A stretch of DNA of 64,000 nt from Polytrichum commune (taxonomy: Eukaryota; Streptophyta; Polytrichopsida; Polytrichales; Polytrichaceae). Under the pieces are notes generated by a model. That model saw only the letters and a program-made list of their open reading frames with translations, was not told the origin of the DNA and made no database searches. The stretch is taken from positions 33,963,501-34,027,500 of the forward strand of contig OX485805.1 of assembly GCA_950295325.1 (NCBI GenBank), given 5' to 3'. Of this stretch, positions 7,348-29,556 are shown one piece after another (position 1 is the first letter of the stretch; every line of letters starts with the position of its first letter). The position numbers and the translations under genes were made by a program.

Positions 7348-8940
7348 ACTCCATTTTGTATTGGATTGTATTATTTTTGGCTTTTAGATTTCCGGCGCAA
7401 GTCTCATACTTGCTCTTCTTTATTTCATTCCCATAATGTCAACCCGCATTGTATTTTTCAATTATTATTGTAAATATTTTTAGTTTGTGGATTAGCCCTT
7501 AAGTATAGTTCAAGTATCCCTAAACGGTATGCCTCTCACAATCTTAACCGCTAATGTAGCATCCACCCATTCAAATATAAAGTTGGTGCCTCACACACCT
7601 CCTCTTTGTTTCACTAAATCATAAATACTCAATAATACTTAAGTTGCACACCACACAACACTTTCTATAATGTTCACCCTCAAATGTTAACCCTCGGGAA
7701 ACAATCATAGTTAACATTTATTAAGGTGTTAACAATTACCAATTATAAAATCGTTTTATCGACCAATATACAAATCTTAATATTTATAAATATAAGCATT
7801 TTTTAAGAGTCTTTGTGAATACCATTCATAAAATTGCAAACCCAATCAAAACTTTATTCAATATGAAGTTTAGAAATCATGGGTGAAGTATGAATCATGG
7901 GCATGCACAACTTGCAAATATTTCTCAATTTGCACCAACAAACCCACATACTTGGACACCCACATGAACGTGTTTCCATGTACCTTCTAATGGAAGTTCT
8001 CATGTGCCTCCATTCTTACACTTCCGTCACTAGAACTAAACATAGCCAAACGTAGTCTTTCCAAAGAGTAGTTATGGTTGCATTTCATTTGTTAACATAT
8101 ATAGAGTCAAATTTAAAAGTGTGCAATATGTGGGGAGTAGAATAAAGTTAACAATTAGAAAGGGTTAACATTTATAGGTGTAACATTAATAGAGTGGACT
8201 ATATGTGGGGAATTCTTTTCACATACCTCTTTCGTGTTTCCTTCATATAGTAATTTTTATTTGATTTACAGTGATATGTACTATAGTACACAAGTTTGGT
8301 AATTGTATTTATGACGTAATAGTGATGTAAGCTCTAATTTTGTATTTTATTATAATATATATATGTTTCAAAAATATGTAAACGTTTCAAATGGGGAAAT
8401 GTTGTTCTATTTCCACAGTAATAGAGACCCTAACTCATAAAATTTTCTAAAAATAGCTCTACCCTAAACCCATAATCTCACGGTTATAGGTGCATTTCCC
8501 CTCTCAATTCATGTCTCAAATGGAGTTCTCCGCTCTCCGCTCGCATACTAACTTTCCCCGTTCTTGGTCTAAACACCCGCTTCAAAGTGTTCGCATCTTA
8601 CAACTTTCTCCAATATGTGTTCCATTTATCCTTGTTCTTATTTATGTCAATGTCTCAAAATGCCCAAAAAGTCTCAATTTAACGAATATAGTGTTAAACG
8701 AAACAAAACCCAAAGGAAGAGGGTTTGATAGAGCGCGTGAAAATCAAGATACATATGAAGCATATATTATACAAAATGGGCGGGCGCACACACACACACA
8801 TACAAACACACGTACTATCTCAAATGAGCTTGTTAAATTTCGCGTGAGATAACAACTCTCTGTACAAATGGTCTCGTGGATCCAAGTATCTCTTGCCTAT
8901 GGGATTATTCCTAACAAAATTGTTTACGGGTAGTCCGCTA
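7348..8940. other. AT-rich intergenic DNA
   Basis: I see no supported gene. The stretch holds AT-rich sequence and a CA microsatellite near 8788-8812. An open frame at 8490-8852 has no recognisable domain and ends in the CA repeat. Confidence 0.6.
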
Positions 8941-8942
8941 CC

Positions 8943-9620
8943 CTAGAGCGCCTGCAGGTATTTACTAAGGTCTAACAAAAATTGGTCCCGGACCTTCTCG
9001 ACCGTCCACGTAGGGCAAACTATGAAGTTGGCCGTCGGGTTCAACATGTTCTTTGCGGCGCTGTCGTCCATCATGAGCGTGTTCTTGCGGGTGGGGCGGA
9101 CGTCGTAGGGGACGCCTATCAAGGATGGACGCTGGTCCCAAAAAATAGGCTTCAAGACCTTGAGATATTGGGGCGACGCAGGGTTTGGTTTTTTGACGAC
9201 TTTGCCGTCCTGTGTGTACAATATTCTACATGCTTCCTGTGCTAGGACCATGCAGGGGGGGCTCGATGCCCTTGAAGATGAACTCCACAACGGCATTGGT
9301 GTTCTCGGCCTTCATGGAGCTCCACACGACCACCCACCATTTTGTTTGGGCGATCTACAGGAAGCGCCGGAGCCACGGCCAGAGGTGCACTAGCTTGCTC
9401 TTTATGAACGTGGGCGGCCCGTCGTAATTAGCGTCCTTGGGCTTGCAAAAGGGCACCGTGGGGGCCCTAGGGCAATGAACGCACTGCACGAGGACACCGT
9501 TCAGGTCTAACACCAGGAATCGTTTCTTTGGCAGCGGGGGCGGGGCGGGTAAAACCGGGGGGGGCGCCGTGCTGCCCTCTCCACTCCTTGGAGAAGAGCG
9601 TCGGGGAGCCGTTACGCTAT
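8943..9620 (-). pseudogene. FCP1/NIF-like HAD phosphatase, pseudogene copy
   Basis: The minus strand encodes a HAD domain of the FCP1/NLI-interacting-factor type. Motif I is LVLDLNGVLV at about 9490-9525, motif II is VVWSSMKAENT, and the acidic motif is TLMMDDSAAKNMLNP. The frame is broken by a TAG at 9355-9357 and by a one-base indel in the C run near 9255-9262. It ends at 8943. It is a paralogue of the intact + strand gene at 29846-30613, which has matching motifs in the same order. In both copies this gene lies just downstream of the ParB/DGQHR-like gene, so the pair was duplicated as a unit. The second Asp of the usual DxD is Asn, as in many plant members. Confidence 0.75.
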
Positions 9621-10109: not shown

Positions 10110-10131
10110 GTTTGAGTCGACCGACCCAAAC
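10110..10131. repeat. Type-2 palindrome, site 1
   Basis: GTTTGAGTCG nn CGACCCAAAC with spacer AC and one arm mismatch. It lies in the exon 3 frame of the - cluster, where it encodes LGRSTQTP. Confidence 0.85.
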
Positions 10132-10182
10132 TGAGTGGGGTCAGTGCATTACCTCGCCTTGGTCGTGCCTTGACGCCGTGGA

Positions 10183-11156
10183 TGTCGCAACCCTTGCTAG
10201 GTCCCTTAACAATCTTGCCAATTTTCGTTTCTAGCAAAGGTTACGAGCGCTAACCCTTCGCATTCCGCCATGCTAATGGATAGCTCCTCTTACCCCGGAC
10301 CTTATAGTTCATAGGAGGGAACCAACCCTCCTACTTTGCTTTCGGGACTCACTCCTTAATCGGTAACCCATTTCCCCAATGTGGACTTCCATCCATGGAA
10401 GTCCAATCCTATGTTGATCATCGCGTTGCCGGAGCAACACTACAACAACCCGAAGCATATTAGGCAACTATGGCCTCACAATAGGCCAAAGCCCATGGAG
10501 GCCTTGCCGTTCGGCCTCGGGTGGGTGAGGCCACACCACCTCACCCATATAAGCCTCTAGGACTTCACGCGGGGCCCCTACCCCACCGTCAACCAACCTC
10601 TTGTCTCTCTACCAAGAGTTGGGGCCAAGTGGACATTTTCCTTTAGCTGCTGGGCCTAGAACCCCCCCAGCAGCTTCAGACCATCATAACTTCCTTGTAT
10701 GATGTCTGATCATAACAACCAACCACTCTATCTTCATCTACGCTTCACGTAGATGCCGATGGACTCCTCACTTGCTCCATTTGAGCAAGTCTTGAGGAAG
10801 TTATGCCTGTTTGAACCTTGGCAGTCCCGGGAATCACTCCCAGGCACTGCTGTAGCAGGGCGCTGTCCCGGGACAGCGCCCCACTCAAATGGCCATAACT
10901 CCTAGCTCACACCTCTGATTGAGGTGTTCTTGAGCTTTCTAGAATCACCACGCCATGAGCTACGCATAACTCATGGCCTTACCCTTGTGCCTCCTAATCT
11001 TCGTGGGTGGGAGGCGTTCCCAACGCCCGGGGCCCTCACCCACACTAGGATCACTTGGGCCCTCTCACCAACGGCGCCACAAGTCCCGGGTGTCACTCCG
11101 GGGTCCCCCTTGTGCCCATGGTGTTTTGTGCACTCCTCATGGAGAGGTGCGCGACA
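10183..11156 (-). mobile_element. Solo LTR, copy A (974 bp), 5-bp TSD GTGGA
   Basis: On the minus strand it starts TGTCGCGCACC and ends GGTTGCGACA. Both sides carry GTGGA (10178-10182 and 11157-11161). There is no internal retrotransposon region, so it is a solo LTR left by recombination. It matches copies B and C, and lies in the exon 3 part of the ParB/DGQHR-like pseudogene. It contains the palindrome GGCGCTGTCCC-GGGACAGCGCC. Short open frames inside it recur in every copy and are not genes. Confidence 0.94.
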
Positions 11157-11361
11157 GTGGATGCCGTCACCGCCTGCTCCGGCGACGTCAGCGGCAACAT
11201 GCTCCTGCAAAGGTTGACTGTCAGGCCTTTGTCCCAACCCAACCTCCGCATGCGCATCATGCATTGGTTCATCGACTGGGTTAGGAGTAGAGGTATCACC
11301 AGGCCCTTGCGGGCCTTCAACATCTAGCATGGGCTTGTCCACTGGGGTCTGATCGGGGACG

Positions 11362-11387
11362 GGGTTTGGGTCGGCCGACCCAAACCC
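11362..11387. repeat. Type-2 palindrome, site 2 (26-bp perfect)
   Basis: Core TTTGGGTCG nn CGACCCAAA with spacer GC; the arms extend to a perfect 26-bp palindrome. In the - strand exon frame it encodes GFGSADPNP. Confidence 0.92.
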
Positions 11388-11432
11388 TGCTGCTTGGCGA
11401 GGGTCGCTCTAGGACGCTGCAACGTCGGCACT

Positions 11433-11454
11433 GTTTGGGTCGGACGACCCAAAC
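11433..11454. repeat. Type-2 palindrome, site 3
   Basis: Perfect 10-bp arms of the GTTTGGGTCG type with spacer GA. In the - strand exon frame it encodes FGSSDPNS, just before the nonsense codon at 11409-11411. Confidence 0.92.
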
Positions 11455-12618
11455 ATGTGGGGGTCGTCCCGCTGGTGGTGTGGGGGCAAGAGGATGGGAG
11501 GCCGAAGCGGCGGGGGTGCCAACGAGCTGGAAGCTCCGGGGACGCGCCAAAGGTTGGGGTCGTCCACCTGCTGGACGGGCGCGTAAGGGCGGGCGTGCGG
11601 CTGCAGCAAATGCCCGAAGCTGAAGGAATGCTGCGGCGCGGGCCGCGGGCCGATATCCTGTGGAGGGAAGCCTGTGGGCAAGTGAGGGAATGAACTCGGG
11701 GGAGCCATCACCAATCCTTGTGCTAGCATGCCCTGGATCACTTGCGTGATTAGCTCCGCTTGGGACGGAGGTTGGGCCATTGCCCTTTGCCGCTCCTGCT
11801 CCAACATGAGAGTCCTTAACTCCGCGACTTCGTTGCGGACCGAGGGATCCTCGGCGGCAGCCTTTTGCAATCAGACGCGCTGCTCCTCGTCCCGGAGCAT
11901 CTTCGCGTTGGCCTCCTCCACGGCGAGGATCTCGGATTTCACCCTCACATTCCTGGCGAACGCTCCGGGGGAAGCAGGATCCGACCTTAGCCTCTTCGCG
12001 AGCTCCATGTCGTCCTCGTCTTCGGAGCTTATGGCGATCGTCTCCTCCACCGCATAGTCCCCGTTCAGCATTCGCCGCTCCCTGAAGGTGGCCGTCGCGT
12101 CCCTCGAATACATGTCCTTCGCGTCGGCCACCGTGAGCACGGGCACTAGCTTGCTCTGAGGCGTCACAGCCCGCATGGCCTTCTTCCGCTGAGGGGCTTC
12201 GGATTCTTGAGTGAACCCTGTTGCCCCTTCCTCCACCTCCCCCTCCACTTTTTCTGCTTCCTCCTCCGCAACCTCGCCACCTGCTCCCATTGACGGATTG
12301 CCCAGATGCAACCCGATGAACGGTTCTGGCAATTGAACGGGGCCCCGCATGGCGAATTCACCCAGGTTGATTCGCCTGGCCATATCCAACGGGTTCTCGC
12401 CCCCCTCGACAATCTTTTCGAAGTAGGATCCGGGTATCCAGTCGAGGATGTCCATTCTCTTTGCCAGAGCCTTCTGGGTCCTGTAGAATTGAACATCGGC
12501 ATCCTCCACATAGGAGTAGATGTTCAACCTAGACATCTGCACAATCCAAATCAATAGTATTAGTATCACCAATGAAGAATAAGGAAAAATAACATCCAAA
12601 ACAAAACAAGAATAGTGA

Positions 12619-12640
12619 GTTTGGGTCGCTCGACCCAAAC
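12619..12640. repeat. Type-2 palindrome, site 4, in intron 2
   Basis: Perfect 10-bp arms with spacer CT. It lies in the intron 12537-12671 of the - cluster gene. The equivalent intron of the + copy (27652-27792) carries two type-1 palindromes instead. Confidence 0.92.
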
Positions 12641-12998
12641 CGTCCATATAGTTCCTTCAGGTTATTTGCTTACCATGGCTGCGAAAACCGGTTTGGAGCC
12701 CCCGAAGACGTTGAAGATGCAATCCCCTCTCTTCATGAGGGTCCTCATCATCCGCAGGTAGAACTCCATGCGCAGCTCATCCGCGGGGTAGTTGGCGTAC
12801 TTCGCCTCGTCGTACAAGCTTCGACTGGAGCCCAACCCTTCTTGGACTTGGAAGAGCTTTTCCATCCTGGCTATGGGATGGTTTGGCACCTTAAGCAACT
12901 CAGCTTTGTACACGAAGTACAAGCACAACACGTTGACGATCTTCGTCTTCTTGTCTTTCAGCGTGATGTACGCCTCCTCCGCCGGTGCAGCAACGTAG

Positions 12999-13970
12999 TG
13001 TCGCGCACCTCTCCATGTGGAGTGCCCGAAACACCATGGGCACAAGGGGGACCCCGGAGTGACACCCGGGACTTGTGGCGCCGTTGGTGAGAGGGCCCAA
13101 GTGATCCTAGTGTGGGTGAGGTCCCCGGGCGTTGGGAACGCCTCCCATCCACGAAGACTAGGAGGCACAAGGGTAAGGCCATGAGCTATGCGTAGCTCAT
13201 GGCGTGGTGATTCTAGAATGCTCAAGAACACCTCAATCGGAGGTGTGAGCTAGGAGTTATGGCCATTTGAGTGGGGCGCTGTCCCGGGACAGCGCCCTGC
13301 TACAGCAGTGCCTGGGAGTGATTCCCGGGACTGCCAAGGTTCAAACAGGCATAACTTCCTCACCACTTGCCCAAATGGGGCAAGTGAGGAGTCCATCGGC
13401 ATCTACGTGAAGCGTAGATGAAGATGGAGTGGTTGGTTGCTGGAATCAGACATCATACAAGGAAGTCATGATGGTCTGAAGCTGCTGGGGGGTTCTAGGC
13501 CCAGCGGCTAAGGGAAAATGTCCACTTGGCCCCAACTCTTGGTAGAGAGACAAGAGGTTGGTTGACGGTGGGGTAGGGGCCCCGCGTGAAGTCCTAGAGG
13601 CTTATATGGGTGAGGTGGTGTGGCCTCACCCACCCGAGGCCGAACGGCAAGGCCTCCATGGGCTTTGGCCTATTGTGAGGCCATAGTTGCCTAATATGCT
13701 TTGGGTTGTTGTAGTGTTGCTCCGGCAATGCGATGATCAACATAGGATTGGACTTCCATGGATGGAAGTCCACATTGGGGAAATGGGTTACCGATTAAGG
13801 GGTGAGTCCCGAAAGCAAAGTAGGAGGGTTGGTTCCCTCCTATGAACTATTGGTCCGGGGTAAAAGGAGCTATCCATTAGCATGGCGGAATGCGAAGGGT
13901 TAGCGCTCGTAACCTTTGCTAGAAACGAAAATTGGCAAGATTGTTAAGGGACCTTGCAAGGGTTGCGACA
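12999..13970 (+). mobile_element. Solo LTR, copy B (972 bp), 5-bp TSD CGTAG
   Basis: TGTCGCGCACC...GGTTGCGACA, flanked by CGTAG at 12994-12998 and 13971-13975. It lies in the exon 2 equivalent of the pseudogene. Deleting it with one CGTAG restores the reading from KPHYV into AAPAEEAY on the minus strand. It is oriented opposite to copy A, 1.84 kb away, so the pair is a near-1-kb inverted repeat. Confidence 0.95.
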
Positions 13971-14450
13971 CGTAGTGAGGTTTCGAGACGGCGTACTCTG
14001 GCTGTAATTTCCGCATGATCTCGTACACCTGCTCCGTCCTCCTGTCCTCGACAATCCATAGCCAGACGTTGACCTCCTTGAATTTGGGGCTGGTGTAGTC
14101 CATGAACTTGGTGAAGAACAGCTTGTAGAACGGGGTGCTCATTGTCCCCTCGAATGAGGCTCTAGGGACGTTCCTGAAGTCTATCATTCCGAAGGGGAAG
14201 CGGTCCCCGGCTTTTGTCCTGATAGCCTTCCTGGCATCAGAGCCCGGCCAGCCTTGGATCTTGAGAGGCTTGAGGGTGACCAAGTTGAAGTAGGCGTCGC
14301 CCTCGAAGCTGACGATCTTCTTCTCCTTTATAAAGTTGGAGAAGGCACGTGTGGAGTGTTCGGGAAGCGCCCGGTTCCTCCCCCCCTTCACAAGCTTGGA
14401 CTTCAGGTAGTCGTCTCCCGAATTGTGAATGGCCCTATACGTGATTCTTT

Positions 14451-16449
14451 ATCTACAATATACATTTCCATTGTTACAAAAAAAATCACACACTACTATA
14501 CAAACAATGTCACAGCAGGTTAATTAGAAAAATGAAAACTTACTGAATACAACAACCTTTTACACAGATTTTAGTTAATATAACGTTTTACTGTTTTATT
14601 GGTGAATGTAATTAACTTTTTAACTGTCTTAATATTTTTAAAGTTCTACTAATTTAATGCTATTGAGCGATCCACTAATTTAATTTAGTTCAACGTTCTA
14701 CTAGTTTAATTTAATTTAATATTTATACTATTTTGGGGGGTTTGGATGTTATACTGGTTTTTTTGAATTGTAACGTTATTTTGAATAGAAGGGCAACCGC
14801 CATATCATGCACAACCCCCAGAAAAAATTTCATTAAAATTTCATTAAAACGTCATTTCTCTACCCATGGGTCCTTGCCTTTTCCTACCAGACCACCTCCC
14901 TTGCCTCTCTTGCCTCTCTCACCACAAAACATGTTCAACCATACCGGTGCATTTATCAGACCTTAAAATATATATTTTGGGGATCTCGACCTTCATGGTC
15001 GCTGTGCCATTTTTTCCTTGGTATAAATCGAAGTGGTCTTGGGACAAGTTCATCACCCAATCAACGCTCTTACAACGGCGCCCTGGAACGACTTTCTGGT
15101 CCATAGTGTAAACCGGCCCTCACCTAGATATACCTGTGGCGGCATTGCCTCCATATCCATGTTTATGAGTTTTCGCTCACCCTTCTCCATGCAAAAGCCA
15201 ATTGGATTCATGACCCATGATCTTAATCAGAGTTTGTAGGAATACTATATTTATCTGTAATCTGGGCCTGTACTGAAGAAAACACATTGAGGAGGAGGAG
15301 TAGGCTTAATATTATAAAGTTCGAATCCATCAGTTGCAACACCTGCAATGCCATTATCCCTCTCGCTCGCTCCTTGGTCGATGATCCTTTGCTCAGACTT
15401 GGTAATTACCAGTGAGCCACTCTCTCTGTCCAAGTCGAGATCTAGATTGGGGTTACTATGAAGACTGTCATTCATCCTGGCCGAGAAGATTACATATATG
15501 ACTGCTTAACTATGACGATACTCTTCTACTGCAGGTAGTAGAATATCACAAATCTGCACAAGGTTATGGCCAATGCTCCTAGTTCAGCGAAATCACAGAA
15601 GCAATGCTGCAAAAAGAGAACAGTTGTCGCCGGAGTGAGAGAATGAGTATACCGGCAAGCGGAAGAAATCAAAAGTCGGGCTCTGGATTGGGATTAGTGT
15701 CAAGACTCACACACCTCTATATCCATCCTGGCCGGTGAGTTTATAAACAAGACTGCATAAGTATGAATCTACTCTTCTGCGGGAAATCTAGAGAAACTGA
15801 TGCTTGCGTTACTCAATTAGTTATGATCGTTCAGTAAATTGGTGGGGCTGGGCCCCTCCTCCAACCTCAAAACTAATGCTTCTCTACAAGTAGTATGTGC
15901 TGACGGAACATAGCATATGCTGATCAATCTGGAAGTGGTTATGAAGCCAAAACCAATTGATCCTAGAAAACCACGTCTATAACTTGCGTGCCCAACTCTG
16001 TCTAATGTATGAGGTGTGGCCGACATGGATCGACATAAGTAGATAACACTATATTCGTTAATCGGAGACTTTTGAAAGTCTCAAAATAAAATATGCCCAT
16101 AGTTTGGGATGCCAATATTGTGGGCATATGGAATGTTGGGAACATCAAGAACATGACAATTTAAAAATTCGCACGTAAAGAATATTCCTAATACTAAAAA
16201 TAGAAAATTGCAATTATAATGAAAACGTGAACTCCATGTGGAAAATAACAAGCGAATCTAAAAAACAAATGGTTTATGTCATTATAGAGTTTGGGGTGCG
16301 TATCCCATAAGTAAGGTTCTTATGGTTGTGGATGGCACATCCCAAACGTATACCACAATTGAATGTGACAAGTCTACTAAGTCTATTAAAAACCAAGACT
16401 ACTAAGCACTAATGTTTTTTCCCGCCGTTAACTTTCACCTATGTTATGT
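14451..16449. other. Mostly noncoding, AT-rich, with possible exon fragments
   Basis: No gene can be firmly supported. A minus-strand frame at 15251-15475 begins MNDSLHSNPNLDLDLD, and another at 14919-15104 contains VDWVMNLSQDHFDLYQGK; both could be exon relics but lack a convincing splice model. Sequence near 15440-15530 recurs at about 15665-15785 (both hold 'catcctggccg' and 'actcttct' blocks), a diverged local duplication. Confidence 0.4.
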
Positions 16450-19400
16450 TTACCCATCTCCATTTTCCGCTTCATATCCATTCTCGGCGTCATTTTCCGC
16501 AGCTGCAATACGTGCCAAGTTGTCTTTGGCAAAATCTATATGTTTTTGGGGGATGGTCATTGCTTCTGTGTTGGAACCTTTGCGCGGCTTCCAAGCACAA
16601 AGTATAGTATCCGTGTTTATCCAAACCGGTGTGTACGCTGAGTCCACTATCCACTTAAAATTCTTTTTGGTGTCCCAACCTAAATAAGTGCGGAGCACGT
16701 TGTGGTCTTTAGTGCTTGGACGACAATATTCCACCTCAATTTGACGAAAGTTGGGGCTAGTTCGAACAAAATTGGGTGAAGACAATGCTTTTACCAACCA
16801 AATTGGCTTGGGATGCTCCTCATCCCCTGCTCGTACGAGGACCAAATACCCTTCATGGCAATCAACACCTACACGAAACGACGGTGCCGGTCGATTACGG
16901 GCAGGGCCAACGTAATGCTCGTCCATTGTGAACTCTTCACGAACGTCTCCATTGCTGAAAAACATAGTATCGGACTCGACAACCGTCAAACGACTTTGTG
17001 GCCAAAATCCTTGTGTCAAAGTCGTACGGGTGTCGCCACCAAGTGTCATCAAGGCTGAGCGAATGCGATCCCAATACGCGATCAACGGTTCATGGGTATC
17101 TCTAACACGTCTTGTGATGTCCTCCTCGCACAATTCTTTCCAATATTCAATGAATCCGGATATGCCTTTGATGATTTCCGGCCCATTCCTCATGGGTTCG
17201 GGTTTGCAAGGCTTTGGTTCCCCATCCGGGACCAAACATTTCCCATCATTGTCTTGACGCCATACGAGTATACCATCATCCGGGCCCCAATTAGGAGATG
17301 TGCACAAAAGCTTGAATTGCATGGCCGGGAGACCATCGTCCCTCATATAAAATCGGAATTGCTGTGCTTTGGTATGCCCCACCAAACGGTCCCCTCCCTT
17401 CAACATGTATGGCTTGATGAAGGCCTTGAAATCTGGTACTTCCTCAATCAAGTGCGGAATTACTGGCATATGGTCCAAATCCATATACAATTTCATAAGA
17501 AGAGGTATGGTTGGAAAATCTTCTTCATGCAACTTCATGCTCCACCGTCCGAATGATGCATCAATGTCGTCATGTGTATGTCCCACCATCAAGAAAGACA
17601 CAAACACCTCCTTGAAGATTCCTTTCGCCACGAGCAATGACCAAAAACAAAATACGTATCGACATTTGTTGTCCTTCGTACAATTATCAAGTTGAACGTG
17701 GAGAGTTGGAGGCAATGGTTTTGCACAAATGGGCTCTCCGGGTGGTTTTGGCAATGACGACATACAAACCTCCTTCCCCGCAAGCACTGCCTCATAAAGG
17801 GATGTGGTTCCACAACCATCAAAAAGTGCACGGGAAGAATGTACCGGTGGCTTCTCAAGATCGCGCAACAGTTTTGCAAATGAACCCACCGTGTGGTTAG
17901 CATCCCCAGGGTAAAAATCCAAACCATAATGGGCATACTTTACGTCCCCATGGCCGTGGGCAATCATACCTGGAAAAAACAAACGATGCGTGACCAAAAT
18001 AATCAAATAACCACTAAACGGATGTTTGGAGTTGGACATTTGCCAAACACACCCAAGAAAATTGGATAGACTTTAAACACGTAGTTGTGATTTCATACAA
18101 ACCTGTGACAGCTACGGGCAACTTGAAGAGACCATCCGTGGCCTTTATTTTGCGTGCATAACAAGGGCATGCGGTTTTGGCGTGGTCCATTTTATCATGG
18201 ATAACTGTTAGAACCTCTGTGGGCCTCATTATGGATAGAGCACGATTCTTATAGTAATCTTGACGGTGTGCCTCTTGATTGTTGACATGTTCAATATATT
18301 ATTTCTGGTGTCTGGAATGAGATTCAGTGCCTATGGGGTGGGCGTCTCGAAGACCTTTGTATTTTTCACACGTCGTACATCTAGCGAACTTGTCCCCGGG
18401 TCTTTTCAGAATGTATTCCGCAAACTGTTGGTTTTTAATCACACTCAACTTGGACAAAGAAATGGGCCCACATCCCGCTATGCGACCCACTTCATTGATG
18501 TCCGTTAAGATGTTCTTCCATTTTGTGCCTGTGGGCAACACCATTTGAACAACCTTCTCCCCTGACGACAATGTCCTCGTCTTGTGGGGCATTGCATCGG
18601 CCAATGGCACTATGATGGTGGATAGTGTCGCGGACGCTTGCAGTGTAGCCTCCCTAGGTTTCTTTGTGCCCGAGTTGCCATGAAATCGAGAGCGGCGACC
18701 CAACGATGAATACTTTCGAAACCTATAAAAGTTAGCCTTGGAGACGGCATGGATGGTATACCACGCTGTACAACACACATCAACATTCTCAAGTGTCACC
18801 ACCTTATGCCCATGGGTATCAAGGTGCAAATTTATGTGGACCTCGAGTTTCTTAGCCGACCTCATACGAAAATCCGCAAGCCACATCTCTTGACGCAGAG
18901 ATCTAATTTTCTCCCGCGGGAAAAATTGGCAACATTTCCTCGCGCAACAATCCTTGCCGGACACTAGATGGATAGATTCGTCCCCCAAAAGCCGATCCCG
19001 TCGACGCTCCTTATCTCCGCAAGGCACACGGTTTGAATCATATCTACGGAGGCCTTTGCGAGGACGTGTTGTGGCCAACAAAGCTAATTGTGTTTGCTTA
19101 TACCGCCGCTCATGATCCCACAAACTCACTTCCTCATGTAGAACTTGACGAAGCGGCCATCGACGCAAGGAAAATCTCCATGTCACCGGGACCTCTACCG
19201 GAAGCAAAGAGTTCAAGATGCACACGCCAACATCATCGAGACCTAGGGCGTTGGCATCGACACAATCACGGGGATTGGAGTTTCTACATATACCATCTGC
19301 CACCGGGACACCAACCTCGTTGAGTAGAACGACATCAAGGCCAACCCATTGCTCCCTCCCGAAACCGGCACACAACGGAATGTCATCGTGGTCATCTCCG

Positions 19401-19579
19401 GAATGCAGAGATTGTTCGTGGACTTCCAAAGATTCATGGGAGGATGTATCCACAAACACCCCCCTCACGTTTGGCACACCATTACTATCTGCCGACGGGG
19501 AAGACAATTCACATTCAGCATCGGATGACGATGCATACGTCGACAACTCCAATGAACTATCACCCACATGCAACGCCAT
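16450..19579 (-). CDS. DUF7869-type, transposon-like protein, two exons, one in-frame stop
   Basis: Exon 1 runs from ATG 19579 (alternative ATG 19633) to 18103; exon 2 is 17969-16450. The intron 17970-18102 has donor GTTTGT and acceptor TTTTTCCAG in phase 1, joining VAVTG to MIAHGHGDVKYAHYG. Exon 1 is acidic at the N-terminus, then basic with Cys clusters (CCARKCCQFF, CTTCEKYKGL, CPCYARK). Exon 2 contains HVQLDNCTKDNKCRY and VGHTHDDIDASFGRW. These spaced acidic motifs are typical of the large DUF7869 family of plants and animals and look like an RNase H-like, DDE-type core; that reading is inference. An in-frame TAA at 18299-18301 lies in exon 1 between HSRHQK and YIEHVNNQEAHR, so this copy is probably inactive. 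Length is about 1,000 codons. Confidence 0.65.
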
Positions 19580-19800
19580 ACAGCCTAGACCAACCACCAG
19601 GAAATGATCAACCCAACCACCACCGCAATGCATACAAGAGAGGATAGAATATATGTGGAGATAAATGGTCCAAAATTGACAAACAAATTTTGGTGCACCA
19701 TTGGAGAACCTCACGCACAAAGACGAACGCGCGTCCCAAAAAAACGTTTTAAGCATACGTCTAGGTTGTTCACTAATGTAAACAATACATGGACAAAGAG

Positions 19801-20170
19801 GAGAACACTCGTTAGTCGTCCAGGAGGGCCCTGCTGTTCGGACCAGCGCCTGTCCCCATACAACCGACGACGAAATCAGAAATCCGAGAACGCCACATGC
19901 ATTTACGAACGCGCGTTCGTGACCTCAGTAACTTCTCCATGTACATCCGGCGGCCTTCGAGATCCCTCAAATGAGAGCACCCTGAGGAATATCGGTTTTG
20001 TAGGTCAAAGTACCATGTTGACTTAGGAACCTGCGCGATATACTATCACAAGAGATGACTTTTGCGTACCTACCCATTTACGAACGGACGTTCGTAAATG
20101 GGTGCGACCCCGTGTTCACATCCTTCACGGACGAGCGATGAGCATATTTTTCTTGCTATTCTGTGTTCGT
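19801..20170 (+). pseudogene. Relic of the 3' end of the ParB/DGQHR-like cluster gene
   Basis: The segment aligns by eye with 29180-29740. Shared elements in the same order are: 'aggagggNcctgctgNtcgg', a palindrome at 19901-19924 matching 29255-29278, 'tcggttttgtagg', 'gactatcac'-like text, then a palindrome at 20076-20099 and 'gagcatatttttcttgc' matching 29720-29740. It is too decayed to translate. It marks a third, nearly deleted copy of the cluster next to the palindrome array. Confidence 0.6.
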
Positions 20171-21050
20171 AAATTACTGCCATAGCGATGTGCATGAATG
20201 AAGATGTGTTGCTGGATGCGTAGACAATAATGACATGTATTTACGAACAAACGTTCGTAAATTCCCGACCATCAGGTACCAATAGATACGGGTCAAATAA
20301 GTATGTATGATCCTCGAAGGCATATTTACGAACGCACGTTCGTAAATGACTGTCATGGATTAAGTGCATGTCACTAACCATATGAGTACCTCAATCCAGA
20401 ACATGCTCTCATGTGGGATTTACGAACGCACGTTCGTAAATTACCGACCATCAGGTACCAATAGACAAGGGTCAAATATGTATGTATGAACCTCGAAGGC
20501 ATATTTACGAACGCACGTTCGTAAATAAATGCCATGGATGATGTGCATGTGACTATCCATGAGTAGCTTAATCCAAAACATGATCTCCATTGGGATTTAC
20601 GAACGCACGTTCGTAAAATTACCGACCATCAGGTACCAATAGCTACGGGTCAAATATGTATGTATGATCCTCGAAGGCATATTTACGAACGCACGTTCGT
20701 AAATAATTGCCATGGATTATGTGCATGTGACTATCCATGAGTAGCTCAATCCAAAGCATGCTCTCAGGTGGGATTTACGAACGCACGTTCGTAAATTACC
20801 GACCATTAGGTACAAAAAAGATAAGGGTCAAATATGTATGCATGGTCCTCGAAGGCATATTTACGAACGCACGTTCGTAAATAACTGAGATGGATTACGT
20901 GCATGTGACTATCCATATGAGTAGCTCAATCCAGAACATGCTCTCATGTGGAATTTACGAACGCGCGTTCGTAAATCCTTGCCATGTCCAAGTCCGAATC
21001 GTTTGTCTAAACCTGAAGCTCTTCATCTTTACGAACGTGCGTTCGTAAAG
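19901..21050. repeat. Type-1 palindrome array, with a 178-bp satellite
   Basis: Twelve copies of TTACGAACG nn CGTTCGTAA, with 24-bp sites starting at 19901, 20076, 20239, 20324, 20418, 20503, 20595, 20681, 20773, 20859, 20953 and 21027. From about 20239 to 20980 they sit in a tandem repeat of 178-179 bp with two palindromes per unit, spaced alternately about 86 and 93 bp. Unit text includes 'accgaccatcaggtaccaatag' and 'tccatgagtagctcaatcca'. Within the satellite the spacer is mostly CA; outside it varies (CG, GA, AA, TG). Confidence 0.95.
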
Positions 21051-21570
21051 TTCCGGTATTTACGGCGGTATATGCGGTAGGTACAGCCTGTACTGTACCT
21101 GGGTGGTGTAGGGTTGGCGCACACGAAATGGCTTGAGCGCGTTCGGTGAGGTCTGTAGAGCGCACACTTGCATGTGCCGCTGAAAAGAGCTTTGTTGTGG
21201 GGGGAAGAGCTTTAAGTACTTCACCCCGCTGGTTCAAAATCCCTTGGATGCTCTTTAAAAAGCGGATTCCCACCGCCTTCTTTGACCTAACAATCTCCCA
21301 TTCCATCCATGCGGAATTATATAAATAGCACTGTCATGTATGGAACATGCCTTGCATGCACGCCAACATATTGAAAATATATAAATCGGTTGCACACCTT
21401 AGTTGTGACCAAGGTCTCATCGAAATATATGTATATACATATATATATACACATAATGTCTAAATATGGAGATGGTTAACATTGAATATTTAATGATTTG
21501 CGACTAAGGTATGAAGTCCAAGTTAATTGACAATTGATGCCTAATAAAGTTATGAATGTCGAAGTCATAG

Positions 21571-21613
<43 letters not shown>

Positions 21614-23190
21614 CACAATGAGGTCAGAGTGGCTAAGAAACATGTTGCGGACGCCCCTAAAATTATAGGTATCATATGTTTCACATCAAAAAATGACCGT
21701 AATATGGTCACCAAGTGCATGAATACAACTAAAAAATCGGGTTAATCCATAATGGCTTGCACTATGGTAGATTGAGGACACTATGAACTAATTATACCTA
21801 ATAATATATGTAAGTTAGATCTTCTTTCAAATGGTATCTAGGTGTGAAAATAAGGAATTAAAATGGCATGAGTAGGAAGGATTAATCAATTTGTAATGCT
21901 GCATAGTATGATAGCGTAATGATCATTGAGACTTGAAACCATACTAGCTACCGTAACGTTGAATCATAGTTACAATTATTATGTGTTTGACGTCCTATTG
22001 GAAATTGAATTTTCGTCCACTTGTTGTAAGGGTACGGATACACATTGGTTAAATATTTATTAGATCATTGGTGATATTTATAGTTGAATGCATTGTTCGA
22101 TTGTTAGTTTAAGTTGACACATGATTAAATGAGTTGAGGTCCTATTGGAAATAGACTTTTAGGGTTTGGGGAAATGCACTATTAATTTGGAATGGTGCAT
22201 ACAATAGTATGTACTTACAATTAATATATGTTTTGCATCCTATGAGAAGGATGTGCATCATCATAGCTTAAAGTGTTGATATAAATTGAAGTCTTAAGAC
22301 ATGCATGTTATTATAATAAGATCGTGGATTGTGTGATGAAATTTCACTCATAACTATTAAGGTGAAAGTGGGAATATTTGAAATTTCACTTATCACCTAA
22401 ACCAAAGTTTTATCTCAAATCTATTAATTTGGAATGTGAAAATGACAATTGGCATCATTATCAATTATTATAGTTGTTATGAACGGAATTAAGCATTCTC
22501 CATCCAACCAACATTGGTAGACCAATTTGACCTGCCCTCAGAAAACAACATGGCCACATATAAGAAAGGTTGGTAAGATAAAAATATGCAGGGATGTAGG
22601 GTTTAGGGTTTGCGGTTAGGGGTTAGGGTTAGGGTTTCGGGGTAGGGTTTAGGGGTTTAGGGTTTGTGAAAGTTGTGTATGTGGTATTTGGGTTTAGGTT
22701 TTAGATTGTTACTAGGATACATTACACACACAAACAATATTGACTCCTGAAAAACCCTTGTAATTGCACTAACTTCATTCATCGCAAGCTCGTAGTTGAT
22801 GCTAGGAAAATAGTTGACCACTCCATAAATGCATTAGTTCAAGCTAACATCTAATATTGGAACTTGAATTGACATCCTATCGTATAGCAACTCTGCGCAA
22901 TCTCATATTATTATGAATTCTTTTTTGCATGTAATATTTATTTGAGGAACCATCGAATTAATTGAAAGATATCTAGCTCTTACATAAACTATATTTTAAA
23001 ACACCATATACATATCTTTGGGGGTGGATTCGACATTGACAACCTAGGAAATGACATGCATTGTTTATTACGAATTAACTGAGCATATTTTCCTAAAATA
23101 TGTTTACAAGGAATCCAAATGTAGAGGTACTAAGGAAATAAAACGAGTAAAATTCATGTATTTGAACTAAGCTTTTCAAGTTAATGCCCT
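21051..23190. other. Noncoding AT-rich stretch with microsatellites
   Basis: No gene seen. TA-rich and TA/CA microsatellites lie at about 21424-21452 and 21570-21620. A degenerate telomere-like TTTAGGG/TTAGGG tract lies at about 22598-22670. Confidence 0.6.
22598..22670 (+). repeat. Interstitial telomere-like repeat
   Basis: Degenerate GGGTTTAGGGTTT / GGGTTAGGGTT units. The plant-type TTTAGGG heptamer supports a plant nuclear origin. Confidence 0.75.
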
Positions 23191-23206
23191 AAACGCGTCC
23201 ATTACA

Positions 23207-23214
23207 TATAAATA
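23207..23214 (+). promoter_or_regulatory. Putative TATA box of the + strand cluster
   Basis: TATAAATA, followed about 30 bp on by a pyrimidine-rich leader, a G-box-like CCACGTGG at about 23345 and 'aaaccctagcggcg', typical of plant 5' leaders. The gene's 5' UTR exons and ATG follow downstream. Inferred from sequence only. Confidence 0.45.
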
Positions 23215-23499
23215 TGTCAAAGCATGAGAATAACAGGAAGGGTTCCAATATACAACCATCTCCCATCTCCCATCCCATCCCTTCCCATCACCTCCCATAC
23301 CATCCCATCCCATCTCCCTCCCAGCCCTAGCCAGTGGAGTTGTGCCACGTGGGAGGTGCTGGGAAACCCTAGCGGCGCACCTACCTCCCCGCGCCCCTTC
23401 CTCTTCTCCTCATTTGTCATTTCGAGGAGAGGAGGAGCGGAGCGCTTAGAGAGCGAAGCTCTTGCTTTTTTTAGTCTTGAAGTTTTAAATTAGTTTTGT

Positions 23500-23830
23500 T
23501 GCAAGTTTTGAGAGATTTCAGATTGAGAGCTTGTGTGAAAGCTTTTGAGTTTGTGAAAGCTTTCATTGTGAAAGCTTGTGAGTTTGTGAAAGCTTTCAGT
23601 GTGAGAGTTTGTGAGTTTCAAAAGCTTGAGAGCTTGAGTAGGAAAGCTTCAGAGTTTCGGATTGAGAGCTTGAGGGTGATCTTTAGAAGCTTCAGAGTTT
23701 AAGGAAGCTTCAGAGTTGAAGCTTGAGAGTTTAGGGAAGCTTCAGAAGTGAAGCTTGAGAGTTTAGGGAAGCTTGAGAGTTTAGGAAAGCTTGAGAGTTC
23801 AGAAGCTTGAGAGCTACAAGGTTGTGAGTT
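23500..23830 (+). repeat. AAGCTT-rich minisatellite in the leader region
   Basis: Degenerate units such as 'gaagcttgagagtttaggg' and 'gtgaaagcttgtgagttt' are repeated in tandem. Open frames across it are products of the repeat. Confidence 0.7.
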
Positions 23831-24183
23831 TTGTGTACATAGGAGTATACTAGGGTTTGTATATAAGCTGTGAAGGCTTGAGGTCTGCATTAGAGAGTTA
23901 TCTGAGTGTGCATTTGAAAGGCAATTGAGTGTGTAGTTGTGAGGATTTCTGGGATTTTCAGAAAGAGAAGAAGCAGGGTTTGAAGTGTGCAGCATTTCAA
24001 TGTAATTTGTTATCCTTTCCAACTCCTCTCACATTCTGAAAATGTTGCTTCTTGAATTCAATTTCTTTTGTTACATGCAATGTGAATTATCACTCTCTTC
24101 TTCATGTTTCATTCTGCATCTCATTATGCATCTCAATTGCTTTATGATTGAAGATTTGCATCATTCTGACCAAAATTTTGCAG

Positions 24184-24211
24184 GCACGGCTGCAAGCAGA
24201 GTAGCTAATAA
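24184..24211 (+). other. Putative 5' UTR exon of the ParB/DGQHR-like gene
   Basis: A short segment lies between acceptor TTTTGCAG (ends 24183) and donor GTGAGT (starts 24212). The following intron would run to acceptor TTCTGTTGCAG at 24909, directly before the ATG, and contains eight type-1 palindromes. Confidence 0.4.
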
Positions 24212-24297
24212 GTGAGTTATATACATATACGTATATATACGTATTCATATATATACGAATACATATATGTACGGACAGGGGATCCCAAAACCATCAC

Positions 24298-24882
24298 ATT
24301 TACGAACGCTCGTTCGTAAATGGACATACACTGCATACCGAACCTCCATTTACGAACGTGCGTTCGTAAATACGCACTCCACGTTCTTTGAAATGATCTA
24401 TATTTACGAACACACGTTCGTAAATATACTCAAAATATCACTCAGAAGGAACCTTAACTTTAATATGAACCTCTATGAATATCTAAAGAACAAATATAAT
24501 TTTGCGAACACCAATAAGACAAATCACATGTACTTACGAAAGATAAATCAACCAAATGTCCGAAAAGATAGACCAAATGGACATATTTACGAACGCACGT
24601 TCGTAAATGAATCCAAATCTATAAAACCAATATCTTTTACAAACGATCGTTCGTAAAAATAACCAAATATATTACAAACACAATCATGACGACTAGTCTC
24701 TTTGATCTTCATATCTTTTACGAACGCTCGTTCGTAAACTCAATACTAAAAAATTATATGTTCTTGCAACCCCTCATTTACGAACGAACGTTCGTAAATA
24801 TAATTACATCAATTGCAAAGACGCATTAATACTGCGTTGTCTGTGGGATATGCATGTCACTTACGAACGTTCGTTCGTAAAG
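24298..24882. repeat. Eight type-1 palindromes upstream of the ATG
   Basis: Sites start at 24298, 24348, 24402, 24585, 24635, 24716, 24776 and 24859, with spacers CT, TG, CA, CA, AT, CT, AA and TT. Sequence between sites is unrelated, so this is not a tandem repeat. The last site ends 28 bp before the ATG. Confidence 0.93.
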
Positions 24883-24909
24883 TCACTAATTGTTTATATT
24901 CTGTTGCAG

Positions 24910-27900
24910 ATGGCAAGATCAAGCAGAAGCGCCATTGAGATGTTCGCGGTGAAGGTCGATGGCCTCCCAGAGTCGGTGTTAGACGATAACGGCAACGACA
25001 ACTATGTCCCCAAGGAAGACTTCATGGGGGAGTGGACGGCACTGCCAGAGAAGATCGGGGACGGCCTCTTCTGCATGCGCTTCACATACGAGCTGGAGAC
25101 AAGACCGGACCAGCCCGAACAGTGGGTTCAAATGAAGACGTGGGAAATAGAGTCCATAGAGGCCCAGGGGGAGTATGTAATTCTGGACATGAAGAACAAG
25201 AAGGATCATATCAACCTCTTGTTGCATTTTCAAAAAAATACCTTCTCCTACCAATATGCCACCAATAACGTAGCGGAAGATGCCAAACACTTCGACCTGG
25301 ACGGCCTCTTCTCCAAATATGCGTTAAGCCCATACTGGACGGCAAGGAAATTGCCGCCCTTGCATTGAACATCTCCAAATACAACAGTGTGGTCACTGAG
25401 GCAAACAAGAAGAAGAAGAGCCCCAGGAAACCATCCACATCAGGGGCAGGAGGATCTAGAAGTGCACCCAGGCCTGTGCCTTCCGCTAGCAGGGCGACGG
25501 AGGGCCCCAGTAGACACTCCACGCCATCGAAGAGGACAAGGGAGGAGATGGAGAAATCGGGAGTAACGGAGACCGCAGAGGTGACCTCGCCTGTCGTAAT
25601 GCCCACCCCCTTGAAAAAGGGTGAGAACCCTGACGCTGTGAAGGCCACGAGGATCCTTCGAGACTTCAACAACTACTCGAAGGATTGCTGGCCCATGGGA
25701 CGCCACTTCACATTCAACGTGGACTGCTTCAAGTGCGAGATGTCCCCCAACAAATGGGTGGTTCGCTCTCGCGAAAGCGGTGGTGTGAAGTGGCAGATAA
25801 ATAATCTAATGAACAACGTCAAGTGGGACAGGCAGACCGTCTGCGTCATGCCGAAAGGGCTGACATCTCGTCCGACGGAGAAGGACTGGACACGGATCCA
25901 GAATGGAGAGTTCTGGATCATAGACGGCCAACACAGCTTGGAGGCGTCCCAGATAATTCTCAAGGACGACAACTTCCAGCATGAGCTGAAGGAAGACTTG
26001 TGCTACTGGAAGGCGTTCTTGGTGTGGTCGGACGATTGGGACAAGCTGCGGAAGATATCCACCTTCCTCAACTCCGGCAACAAGATCAAGGCCTTCGAGG
26101 CGTCGTGGGCAGCCAACATAGTGGCTGCAAGGGACGTCTGGGTCGCCCACGGGTGCCCTCCTAAAGAAAGGGAGAACGCGAAGACGCCGTCTCCACAATG
26201 GAAGGTGAGTTTACGAACGAACGTTCGTAAATATCTTTGACATTCAAAATTTCAAGTTCTTTGACATTCAAACTTACGAACGTGCGTTCGTATTTTGTGC
26301 GTTACTGATGTCTTTCTTGCTGCAGGCATTCTGCGACGCGATGGTGGACAAGTTCTCCTCCATCGACATGAAGTCTACAACAACCAAGTCTGTCCTGGAG
26401 CTCAAGGGTGAGCTCCGCCTCATCTGTTGCAACAGGGACACTTGGGAGTTGTGGACACAATTTTTTGATGCGCACAGCTCGGGCGATCTGGTCAACCCCG
26501 ACACCGAGGAGAAGTACAGCGCGGAGAAGACCGGGGAGGCCCCTCCACTACTGAGGGAGTTCTTCAGGTCCCTTCAAGGGTTAACAGAGTCCAAGTTGCA
26601 GAGGTGCGCGGTGCATCTTCTTGGGAACACAGTGGGAAGAACCATCCCATACCCGAAGATATTTTTGAAGAGGCCAAGACACAAGCCCGGCACGTATTCC
26701 ATCAAGGAATGGTGCGAACACCGCAAGCTGAAGACTGCTGCAATGAGGGAGTTGAGCGCCCTAATACCAGAGTACGCACTCATCCTAGCCGACGGGGACA
26801 TTAATTGGGCCAGCTGGAAGATGTTCAAGGTCGACTACAACATCTCCGGACCCTCAATGCGTTGTCTTGTCAAGGAGCACGCCTCCATTTTGAAGCAGAA
26901 GGGGAACAAGAGGACAAAGAAAACCGAGACGGATCCCCAGGAGGTGGAGCAATACAGAAGCTTTTTGGCGCGGAAGAGGTTGGCCACATTCGAAGGAGTG
27001 GCCAGATTTTGTCTAGTGACAACCAGAGTGGAGAGGGTGACATTCTCCAAGTGGGACCGGACCATGAGCAGGGCCGAGGTGAGGGAGGATCGACAGGGGT
27101 GCCTATTTGCCCTGATCGATTTCAGGGGGATCCCCGGTGCGTCGAGGCAGGGGGGGAAGGACATACCTTTCTACGACCCCTTCATGGCCAAATTCAAGGA
27201 GCACAGGTCTCCGGACATGAAGGAGCCTCACGTTTGGCTGTGGATAGTGGAGCAGGAAAAGCTCTCTGCTGTAGTCGACCTGTACGAGAAGATGATCAAA
27301 TTCGAGTACAGTATCTTCCACAGCACTTACGTGCCCGCCAAGACGGAAGGGATCGTGGCCATCAACGAGGCCAGGGGAAACAAACAGGTGGGGGCGGTCA
27401 GCCTCGTCTTCTTGACGTACAACGCGCTTCGGAATGGGCGAGCCCCTGTCAAGGCGAACACTACGTTCAAGAAGATCTACAGCATCCCCCATCCCCCTCC
27501 TAAGGATCTGCTGCAGGAGACCTTGTACACTGTTCTCCCGGCGATGGAACTCAGGTTGGAGTTCTACGTCTCCGTTTTGCAGAGCGTGGCAATAAGCGGA
27601 GAGACCGTGTACAACGTTTGTGGCGGCAACAAGTTCATGTACGTTGCGATGGTAAGCTCTCCAACTAATATTTACGAACGCTCGTTCGTAAAGTTCACCT
27701 CAACTTGTCTTGGGGTTTGATGACATTGTTTCTCGTCGTTGATGTTTACGAACGCACGTTCGTATATTCTAACATATTTGCTTGAATCTCAGATGCTGGG
27801 GCTGGTCGTCAACAGCTTCATTGAAGCCATCGACGAGGAGGACTTCCACGTGCACAGGGCGAAGGCCTCCACGATGGACCTGGAGGACATGTCCCTCCCG

Positions 27901-29395
27901 AGGACGGACATCAACATGCCCGTCGACGAAGGCATGCCCGCCATGGAGACGGACGACGACGAGCCCGCGCCCTCCTACAACGTCGAGGCGATCCTCCGAT
28001 CCTTGGACGTCACTCCTCTCCGCATTTTGGCGCCGTCGGGAAATCCATCCGACGTGCAAGGGACTCCGGGTGGATACACGGGGGCGTCGGCGGGGACAAC
28101 CCAAGATGTCCTCCCCGCGAGAACGTCTGGAGCGGAGGCATTCGGCACTCCCGGGGGATGCTCGACATCCGTGTCGCCTAGGCCAGTCGTGGTTCCCAAG
28201 ATGGAGAACCTCGACCTTCTGGACCAACGGTCCCGACCGACGTTGGACCAGTACCGCAACACGAGGCGGAGGATGAAGAAGACCCCCTACGTGGAGCTGC
28301 CTCCGGGGGCAATCATCGAGGTCTCCGATGAGGACGAGGGCGACATGGAGATCATGGTCGAGCTGGGGGTAGACTTTGACAAAAACAAGAGGGTCAAAGA
28401 GGAGGCGTTGTCCGTCGCCAAGCTTAACGCCAAGCTCGAGCAAAAGATGAAGGAGGACATGGCGAAGGCGGCAGAGGAGAATGCCAAGAAAATGTTCGCA
28501 ATTCAGGAGGAGCTGAGGCAGTCAAACGAGAAGACGGACGCCATCCTCGCCATGCTCCAGCGTATGCAGAGTTTCTCGGCGCCCCCCCCAGCCGGCCTAC
28601 CCCTTCCCTGGAGGATACCCCTCCCAATCCCCTCCACCGGGCATGTTCACCGGAGGGCCTTCCCGCCAGCAGGCGCCCCACCCGACGCCTGTTGGCACTC
28701 CTCCGCCACCAGAGGTTCCCTCGACCACCTCCCACGATGCTGTGGCGGCGGCCATCCAGGAGGACGAGGATTTACGAACGCGCGTTCGTGAATCTTCAGG
28801 TCCTCCAGTCCTCACCCCTCCCCCTTCAAGGGTAGGACTGCCCTCATACACCGATGCGTCGTCTTTCACCGTCGTCCCCAGGGTAGTAGACAGACATGGC
28901 GATGACTCTGCGCGACACACTGACATGGTCATTGTGGAGGACACGCAGGGGAGCCCCAATGACGCACCAGGGGTGCATGGGATGGACGTGGAAAAAACCC
29001 ATGCGGCGTGGATGGAGGATGTCAGGATGGACGCGCTCGACCTGGGCGCCGAGGAAGAAGACGCGCTGCGCATCCAGGCGACACAGGCGTCTCAACCGGA
29101 GCGTGAGGCAGAGGCCATGGAGACAGAGGCGGCTGCAGCTGTGGAGGTTACGAACGCGCGTTCATTAATCGTTGAGGAGGGACCTGCTGCTCGGTCCAGC
29201 GCCGCTGCCCCTCCCCCCGATGACGAGGTAACTCTCCTCTGAGAATACCATTTTTTTACGAACGCGCGTTCGTAACCTCTCTAACATCGCGATGTTTTTC
29301 TCTTCATCGACATCCAGTGGCCTTGCGAGAGCCCTCTTCAGCGGTCCCCCTTAGGGCCGAACAGTTTTGTAGGACACGGCATCATTTTGCCTTAG
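24910..29395 (+). CDS. ParB/DGQHR-like cluster gene, four coding exons, two frameshifts
   Basis: Coding exons are 24910-26204, 26326-27651, 27793-29227 and 29318-29395, all joined in phase 0 with clear GT-AG sites. Exon 1 carries VCVMPKGLTSRP and then GEFWIIDGQHSLEAS, which matches the VIDGQHRLEAA signature of the ParB/DGQHR fold, except that R of QHR is S. Exon 2 is conserved with the - strand copy (FALIDFRGIPGAS, PHVWLWIVEQEK). Exon 3 has an acidic SIM-like stretch (IIEVSDEDEGDME), a Lys/Glu-rich coiled coil and a Pro-rich tail. Two frame breaks, a one-base loss at about 25315-25330 and one extra C in a C run at about 28583-28591, mean either decay or sequence error. Eleven or more palindromes lie in its introns, coding exon 3 and leader intron. 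Function unknown; DNA binding is inferred from the fold. Confidence 0.72.
26209..26295. repeat. Palindrome pair bracketing intron 1
   Basis: Type-1 sites at 26209-26232 (spacer AA, 4 nt after the donor start) and 26272-26295 (spacer TG, 30 nt before the acceptor end). The intron is 26205-26325. Confidence 0.9.
27670..27767. repeat. Palindrome pair bracketing intron 2
   Basis: Type-1 sites at 27670-27693 (spacer CT) and 27744-27767 (spacer CA) in the intron 27652-27792, one near each splice site. Confidence 0.9.
28770..28793. repeat. Type-1 palindrome inside coding exon 3
   Basis: Spacer CG. The 24-bp site is read in frame as DLRTRVRES, eight codons long, within an otherwise Pro/Ser-rich coding stretch. 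Confidence 0.9.
29147..29170. repeat. Second type-1 palindrome in coding exon 3, partly decayed
   Basis: TTACGAACG cg CGTTCATTAA: the left arm is intact and the right arm has lost one CG. It is read in frame as VTNARSLI. Confidence 0.8.
29255..29278. repeat. Type-1 palindrome in intron 3
   Basis: Spacer CG; lies between donor 29228 and acceptor 29317. The homologous site in the relic copy is 19901-19924. Confidence 0.9.
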
Positions 29396-29556
29396 GAAAA
29401 TGTGATAGACTATCACGTGAGAAATGTAAATATTCAACGGATTAATATATGAGCCTATGTTATCTGCATCGCGTTGCTTCAAATTCTCTGCCCTCGACCC
29501 CTTCTCGTATGTTGTATATGTTGATGAGATTATGTTGATTCTTGCATACCCACCTC

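Follow-up and report, generated by a model that had tools for sequence, protein, structure and literature searches.

Family-specific palindromes co-vary with a putative, weakly ParB-like accessory gene in large DNA transposons of Polytrichum commune

Bacterial ParB recognises palindromic parS sites, and TnpA of the Spm/En elements is an accessory DNA-binding protein for a repeated short subterminal motif with CG content. VANDAL elements are Mutator-like transposons, whose VANC proteins carry domains of another kind (DUF1985). Two reports on Arabidopsis state that VANC binds noncoding VANDAL motifs and removes methylation (PMC5735166, PMC10398659), and that related families have different motifs, placed as tandem repeats in introns, between genes and in terminal noncoding DNA (PMC5735166). 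Accessory genes with ParB-like and methyltransferase domains are described in PMC12477816 for algal transposons, among them the 21.5-kb Sola-1 of Ectocarpus and transposons of green and red algae. Here we describe a 64,000-nucleotide stretch of Polytrichum commune (contig OX485805.1, positions 33,963,501 to 34,027,500; hereafter the window), which holds a DNA transposon, the A element, and the remnant of a related one, the B element. Their families share a transposase-like gene (gene A), a putative accessory gene with weak likeness to ParB (gene B) and a phosphatase-like gene (gene C), and we found that each family carries its own palindrome, the arms of which change with the clade of gene B.

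Palindrome arms and the gene-B clade

The B-type palindrome has the form TTTGGGTCG-nn-CGACCCAAA. An earlier sequence-only reading of the window had listed four of them, with cores AC, GC, GA and CT, at a broken minus-strand copy of gene B, and all four are present:

10111-10130: B-type site, core AC, one arm mismatch (TTTGAGTCG); matches position 1818 of L103, a piece of the fuller B-type copy described below
11365-11384: B-type site, core GC, inside or close to exon 3 of the broken gene B
11434-11453: B-type site, core GA, within the open frame 11409-11870 of exon 3 of the broken gene B
12620-12639: B-type site, core CT, at the place of intron 2 in the broken gene B

The exon and intron numbering used at the time fits on condition that a single exon encodes the ParB-like part, which is how the homologues have it: the site at 12620 then falls in intron 2, those at 11365 and 11434 fall within or close to exon 3, and 10111 lies farther downstream. 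With up to three mismatches allowed, 0.04 B-type sites were expected per shuffled window and four were reached in none of 100 shuffles. The A-type palindrome, TTACGAACG-nn-CGTTCGTAA, occurs at 31 sites under the same threshold, all within 19903-29712, and a window search found none in the broken minus-strand cluster, as had been reported. A chance or simple-repeat origin of the palindromes was rejected on these counts. The CG-nn-CG centre, previously seen in both families, was found in all four arm types (A, B, C and D). The A and B types also favoured a further base pair at either end, which extends the A palindrome to GTTTGGGTCG-nn-CGACCCAAAC (87 and 90% of 135 sites) and the B palindrome to TTTACGAACG-nn-CGTTCGTAAA (79 and 84% of 85 distinct sites). 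The genome comprises 408 Mb in 64 contigs, seven of which, of 42-78 Mb, make up nearly all of it; it holds 9731 copies of the exact TTTGGGTCG palindrome and none of the pattern read backwards. Further exact 9-2-9 palindromes with two or more occurrences in the window were GACTTCCAT (three times) and GCGCTGTCC (twice), both inside copies of one nested repeat, and AT runs. At some loci a third palindrome, ACCCTGTGCGTTAACGCACAGGGT, lies beside the TTTGGGTCG arrays (L003:328-1261, L008:1825-1844), with the core TA in the six exact copies listed; possibly it is the site of another element protein.

The arms were compared with the gene-B clade across the same genome. Searches used the ParB-like part of gene B (127 of 1079 candidates scored), a B-type homologue (91 of 1113) and a C-type homologue (97 of 1076) as queries, and the sample consisted of the best 30 A loci, the best 30 B loci and 25 short C pieces from 24 of the 97 copies. 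Twenty-four of the C pieces lie downstream of exon 1, and the remaining one, L082, lies upstream in the same copy as L078. Loci L001-L008, which had been fetched via the palindrome itself, were excluded; arms were counted at up to one mismatch, with ties between A and C arms assigned to A. We found that all 30 clade-A loci carried TTACGAACG arms only (333 sites) and that all 30 clade-B loci carried TTTGGGTCG arms only (295 sites). The clade-C pieces held 33 TTACGGACG sites, spread over 21 of the 25 pieces (20 of 24 copies), or 22 when a half-A, half-C tie site in L084, scored as A by the above rule, is included; another clade-C piece, L092, carried the symmetric variant TTATGGACG-CG-CGTCCATAA. 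At this threshold no B site was found in A or C loci, and no A, C or D site in B loci. A tree built from 83 exon-2 peptides, of which 43 were distinct and 81 labelled, needed three changes of arm label, the minimum being two, and none of 200 label shuffles was as low; the extra change is probably the L084 tie. The prediction drawn from the window was that each subfamily would have one distinct arm sequence, which would change along with the protein tree. It held in all three subfamilies tested in the genome, and the loci examined showed neither clusters devoid of palindromes nor a palindrome common to distant subfamilies. The underlying idea of cluster-specific cognate sites that diverged along with their gene is supported in that arms follow the clade; the unit is the transposon family and not the local cluster.

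Homologues from other sources, predicted mostly from metagenomes, often run into introns, and their translated ends then spell the palindrome. In proteins P0001-P0045 (45, query included) the arm was read unambiguously 21 times (13 A, 5 C, 2 D, 1 B), with one A/C ambiguity and 23 proteins giving none; the corresponding figures for the 56 proteins P0046-P0101 were 20 unambiguous (12 A, 5 C, 2 D, 1 B), seven ambiguous and 29 with none. No protein among P0001-P0101 spelled two unambiguous arm families, and single arm calls from read-through may be chance, since the peptide patterns are short. The D arm, TTACGGCCG, comes from the metagenome homologues and is known via protein read-through only. 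The A, C and D arms form a one-step series (TTACGAACG, TTACGGACG, TTACGGCCG), in which C and D are one mirrored base apart, and the B arm is far from all three. A tree of 24 exon-1 proteins (19 labelled), poorly supported on 13 of its 21 inner branches, required three changes, which is the minimum and was matched by none of 200 label shuffles; a tree of 38 exon-2 proteins (17 labelled), on which C and D labels interdigitate, required four against a minimum of three, and two of 200 shuffles were as low.

Constraint on the arms was measured in the B family after turning 30 loci to one strand. Alignment columns were counted if at least 10 loci had a site there, which gave 10 columns, each with 20 to 30 loci. 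The arms differed at 949 of 64008 bases (1.5%), compared with 1857 of 7112 (26.1%) for the core and 20736 of 92456 (22.4%) for the flanks. Because each column holds a site in 20 to 30 loci, the bias from site choice is small, and selection of matching sites explains little, though not none, of the contrast between arms and flanks. A hypervariable or flipping core was considered and rejected: an excess of 29% in the core over 10% in the flanks was seen only before strand orientation, and became 26% versus 22% after it.

Anatomy of the elements

Sequence comparison assigns the four B-type sites to the remnant of a DNA transposon of about 16 kb, of the B family, which retains two further features in the window:

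11409..14448, minus strand: broken gene B of the B family, from tblastn and blastn; the pieces 14442-13939, 12823-12671 and 12170-11847 match gene B
8823..9525, minus strand: gene C remnant (NIF/FCP1-like phosphatase) of the same copy, 41-47% identical to 29828-30610

The fuller B-type copy, pieced together from three separate parts (L102, L041 and L103), spans about 15.9 kb (C3:58300802-58316744), and the remnant is 72-74% identical in DNA to L103. It has terminal inverted repeats similar to those of the A element, a DUF7869 transposase-like gene A and a divergently transcribed gene B, and its flanks suggest a 4-bp target duplication (ATCA). The L103 sites at 1427 and 1496 (exon 3), 1818 (10111 in the window), and 186 and 222 (intron) match those of the remnant. 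Ten sites lie before gene A of the fuller copy and more lie before gene B, in its introns and in or near exon 3; this placement is common to the A and B elements, and the two elements examined have about 25 to 31 sites each. Between them, gene A is 64% identical over 505 residues and 63% over 357, and gene B is 25% identical over 91 residues, 41.5% over 306, 35.5% over 389, 45% over 51 and 25.5% over 294. In this one element pair gene B has therefore evolved faster than the transposase (25-45% versus 63-64%), and the terminal repeats have stayed similar.

One arm of an inverted repeat pair of about 970 bp interrupts the broken gene B. This repeat of about 1 kb has three copies in the window (10183-11156, 12999-13970 and 33368-33994, the third shorter), two of them mutually inverted, one within the broken gene B and one past its end. 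A terminal piece, 8560-8696, shares 97.8% identity along 137 bp with the B-type element's right end in L103 and runs opposite to the rest of the remnant. Within the fuller B-type element a copy of the terminal repeat lies between gene A and gene B (L102:6084), perhaps as a nested non-autonomous element.

The A element has no clear target duplication at its ends and is organised as follows:

16045..32115, plus strand: A-family element, about 16.1 kb between inverted repeats beginning AACACTATATTCG
16450..19924, minus strand: gene A, DUF7869 transposase-like (PF25273, E value 1.7e-40); two open reading frames (ORFs), with the match in the C-terminal one
19903..21048: 12 TTACGAACG palindromes in an array that adjoins gene A at its 5' end and is in part a 178-bp tandem repeat
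24300..24880: a further array, of 8 TTACGAACG palindromes, before the start of gene B
24910..26207, plus strand: gene B exon 1, ParB-like, containing WIIDGQHSLEAS; two overlapping frames in the window copy, where homologues P0002 and P0003 have a single frame
26208..26328, plus strand: gene B intron 1 (GT...AG), with two TTACGAACG palindromes (26211, 26274)
26329..27654, plus strand: gene B exon 2, without DPPY and ending in a weak likeness to methyltransferase motif I
27655..27786, plus strand: gene B intron 2 (GT...AG), with two TTACGAACG palindromes (27672, 27746)
27787..28788, plus strand: gene B exon 3, fast-evolving, 25.5% identical to the B family
28772..29712: seven more TTACGAACG sites (1-3 mismatches in six), where gene B ends and beyond it
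29828..30610, plus strand: gene C, NLI-interacting-factor-like HAD domain (CTD phosphatase-like; PF03031, E value 3e-16)

Gene C accompanies gene B in both families (43% identity over 236 residues between the A and B elements), and may be part of the same regulatory function. Leucine-rich-repeat and retrotransposon genes also lie in the window. An ORF at 5621-6409 (plus strand) weakly matches a phage DNA methyltransferase profile (E value 0.1) and matches motif I of a methyltransferase alignment (E value 0.006; one of 100 shuffles as high), and seems to read EYPDG at the place of DPPY; it is perhaps a degenerate methyltransferase of another transposon.

The gene-B protein and competing readings of the sites

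In 16 aligned gene-B proteins the motif G-E/D-F-W/Y-I-V/I-D-G-Q-H-S, which we take to resemble the DGQHR/ParB motif, is invariant or nearly so. The phage ParB-like partition profile phrog_1033 matched 10 of 26 gene-B proteins weakly (best E value 0.0013) and, in a separate scan, P0020, P0028 and P0033; DUF6551, presumably a ParB relative, gave weak matches in 8 of the 26 (best E value 0.012). The ParB likeness of gene B thus appears weak, and the comparison with ParB-parS made in the sequence-only reading draws weak support from it. A tblastn search of phage with P0020, a PADLOC search with four proteins and an NCBIfam search with six pieces gave no match, no match and nothing relevant, respectively.

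We consider it probable that the palindromes are family-specific binding sites of the gene-B protein, which would be an accessory ParB-like transposon protein and probably a homodimer, with anti-silencing or activation as its likeliest job. A dimer of the protein would bind the palindromes of its own family, reading an outer arm that varies between families around the fixed inner CG-nn-CG; the arm changes are mirrored in both halves, from A to C to D and in L092, which is what a symmetric dimer would lead one to expect. The sites would lie in regions that control how the element is transcribed, and the bound protein would hold these regions, the promoters and introns of the element, active against host silencing, as a VANC-like anti-silencer or an activator. 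Since arms and protein diverge together, each protein would act on its own family only. The ratio of observed to expected CpG fits in part a protein that keeps regions of the element active: it was 0.88-1.19 in seven of eight two-kb bins of the A element and 0.40 in the eighth, compared with 0.32-0.72 in 23 of the 24 window bins outside it, the remaining one (8001-10000) being on the B remnant. The segment 22001-24000, which lies inside the A element, is CpG-poor (0.40), contains TAGGGTT repeats and is probably an insertion. A bolder version, which we think unlikely, has the gene-B protein loading at its own palindromes as a clamp and spreading over the element to exclude the silencing machinery; this would be a eukaryotic system resembling ParB-parS, in which mirrored arm changes around the fixed CG-nn-CG rewrite specificity and make sister families independent.

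Several observations weigh against binding by gene B. The protein has no Pfam match at the curated threshold and no credible match among solved structures, and phrog_1033 matched neither the clade-A protein P0002 nor P0038. Arm constraint is seen in the B family only: in 51 clade-A pairs the arms differed at 119 of 9126 bases (1.3%) and the flanks at 110 of 10140 (1.1%), without contrast, and the core at 2 of 1014, a comparison of low power because the clade-A copies are young, though it lends no support either. One clade-C copy has an A-like site upstream (L082), and two clade-C pieces, L095 and L100, have no palindrome site. The A and B loci are near-copies, taken as best matches rather than as a random sample, and few of the arm shifts are independent. 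Co-variation extends to the transposase, which is likewise different in each family. The high CpG of the A element may come from youth or base composition alone, and one bin of the B remnant (0.95) is as CpG-high as that element.

In a rival reading the palindromes are bound by the product of gene A and gene B is a passenger. Subterminal repeats are transposase binding sites in Ac and Spm elements, and gene A has a large array at its 5' end in each family and itself differs between the two (63-64%). However, the sites run through gene B, in its introns and its final exon, at distances from the gene A 5' end that reach 9.8 kb, rather than clustering at the element ends; the terminal repeats, where transposase sites would be expected, are alike when the palindromes are different; and in the single pair compared, gene A has evolved more slowly than gene B. 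We therefore judge this reading unlikely. Less likely again, and in our view improbable, is that gene B is a self-marking DNA methyltransferase, which would bind the palindromes and modify its own transposon. The end of exon 2 is a GETVYNVFGGSKFMYAAL-like sequence, and the best exon 2 match to a profile of eight methyltransferases places it on motif I (N4/N6). This match is weak, as 4 and 6 of 100 column shuffles reach its score, counting among them one outlier above 130 in each of three runs, and the 33 gene-B homologues include none with the catalytic DPPY/W/F pattern and none with a Pfam methyltransferase match. The absence of that catalytic motif likewise leaves the earlier comparison with restriction-type specificity without support, and no restriction enzyme was found among the window pieces scanned, a subset of ORFs. 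A methyltransferase assignment through Escherichia coli YhdJ alone was rejected, the alignment (E value 0.043) falling elsewhere than motif I.

Dimeric regulators typically bind symmetric sites whose two-base core is free, and a host transcription factor might read the palindromes if the element promoters had been captured from different host gene families. Such an origin would not lead one to expect the correspondence with gene-B clades, the mirrored single-base arm shifts or the location in introns and a coding exon, and we regard it as very improbable. The same palindromic arms and free core would suit the crossover sites of a recombinase, as for serine recombinases; against this, the cores vary among the sites of one element, and no recombinase domain was found in the 16 window pieces scanned with Pfam (46 ORFs of at least 130 residues were listed), which makes it the least credible of the readings, with hardly any weight. 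Binding by the gene-B protein remains the account that we favour.

Comparison with known systems

We found no report of cognate co-varying palindromes for ParB-methyltransferase transposon proteins and no paper on DUF7869 among the open-licence papers that our searches listed, and the word stem 'palindrom' does not occur in the main texts of PMC5735166, PMC10398659 and PMC12477816. The algal ParB-methyltransferase system (PMC12477816) resembles ours in being a large DNA transposon with an accessory gene opposite the transposase and a ParB-like domain; it differs in that a methyltransferase domain was called there, whereas here the transposase is DUF7869, the methyltransferase is doubtful in the absence of DPPY, and co-varying palindromes are documented. 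Like ParB-parS, the Polytrichum elements have palindromic sites, which a ParB-like protein is predicted to recognise; unlike it, they hold about 25-31 sites per element in arrays, with arms that change between families, in a eukaryotic transposon. Repeated short CG-containing motifs and a putative accessory DNA-binding protein recall TnpA of Spm/En, from which the present sites differ in being internal, intronic, palindromic and family-specific.

The closest parallel may be VANC/VANDAL of Arabidopsis, where VANC is, like gene B, an accessory gene of a DNA transposon and its protein has highly variable regions (PMC5735166, PMC10398659). The gene-B elements, too, hold repeated short noncoding motifs that differ between related families. 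The proteins appear to be different: the transposase here is DUF7869 and the accessory protein ParB-like, and Pfam scans of the gene-B pieces, the homologues and gene A listed DUF7869 and no VANC or Mutator domain. With at least three protein clades and their matching sites in one genome, direct tests become possible of how specificity switches, of escape from silencing and of whether a eukaryotic protein can spread as ParB does. As judged from sequence, transposons seem to have invented family-private recognition a second time and independently, by means of an unrelated protein, and the code of mirrored arm changes would be cleaner than the one known from Arabidopsis.

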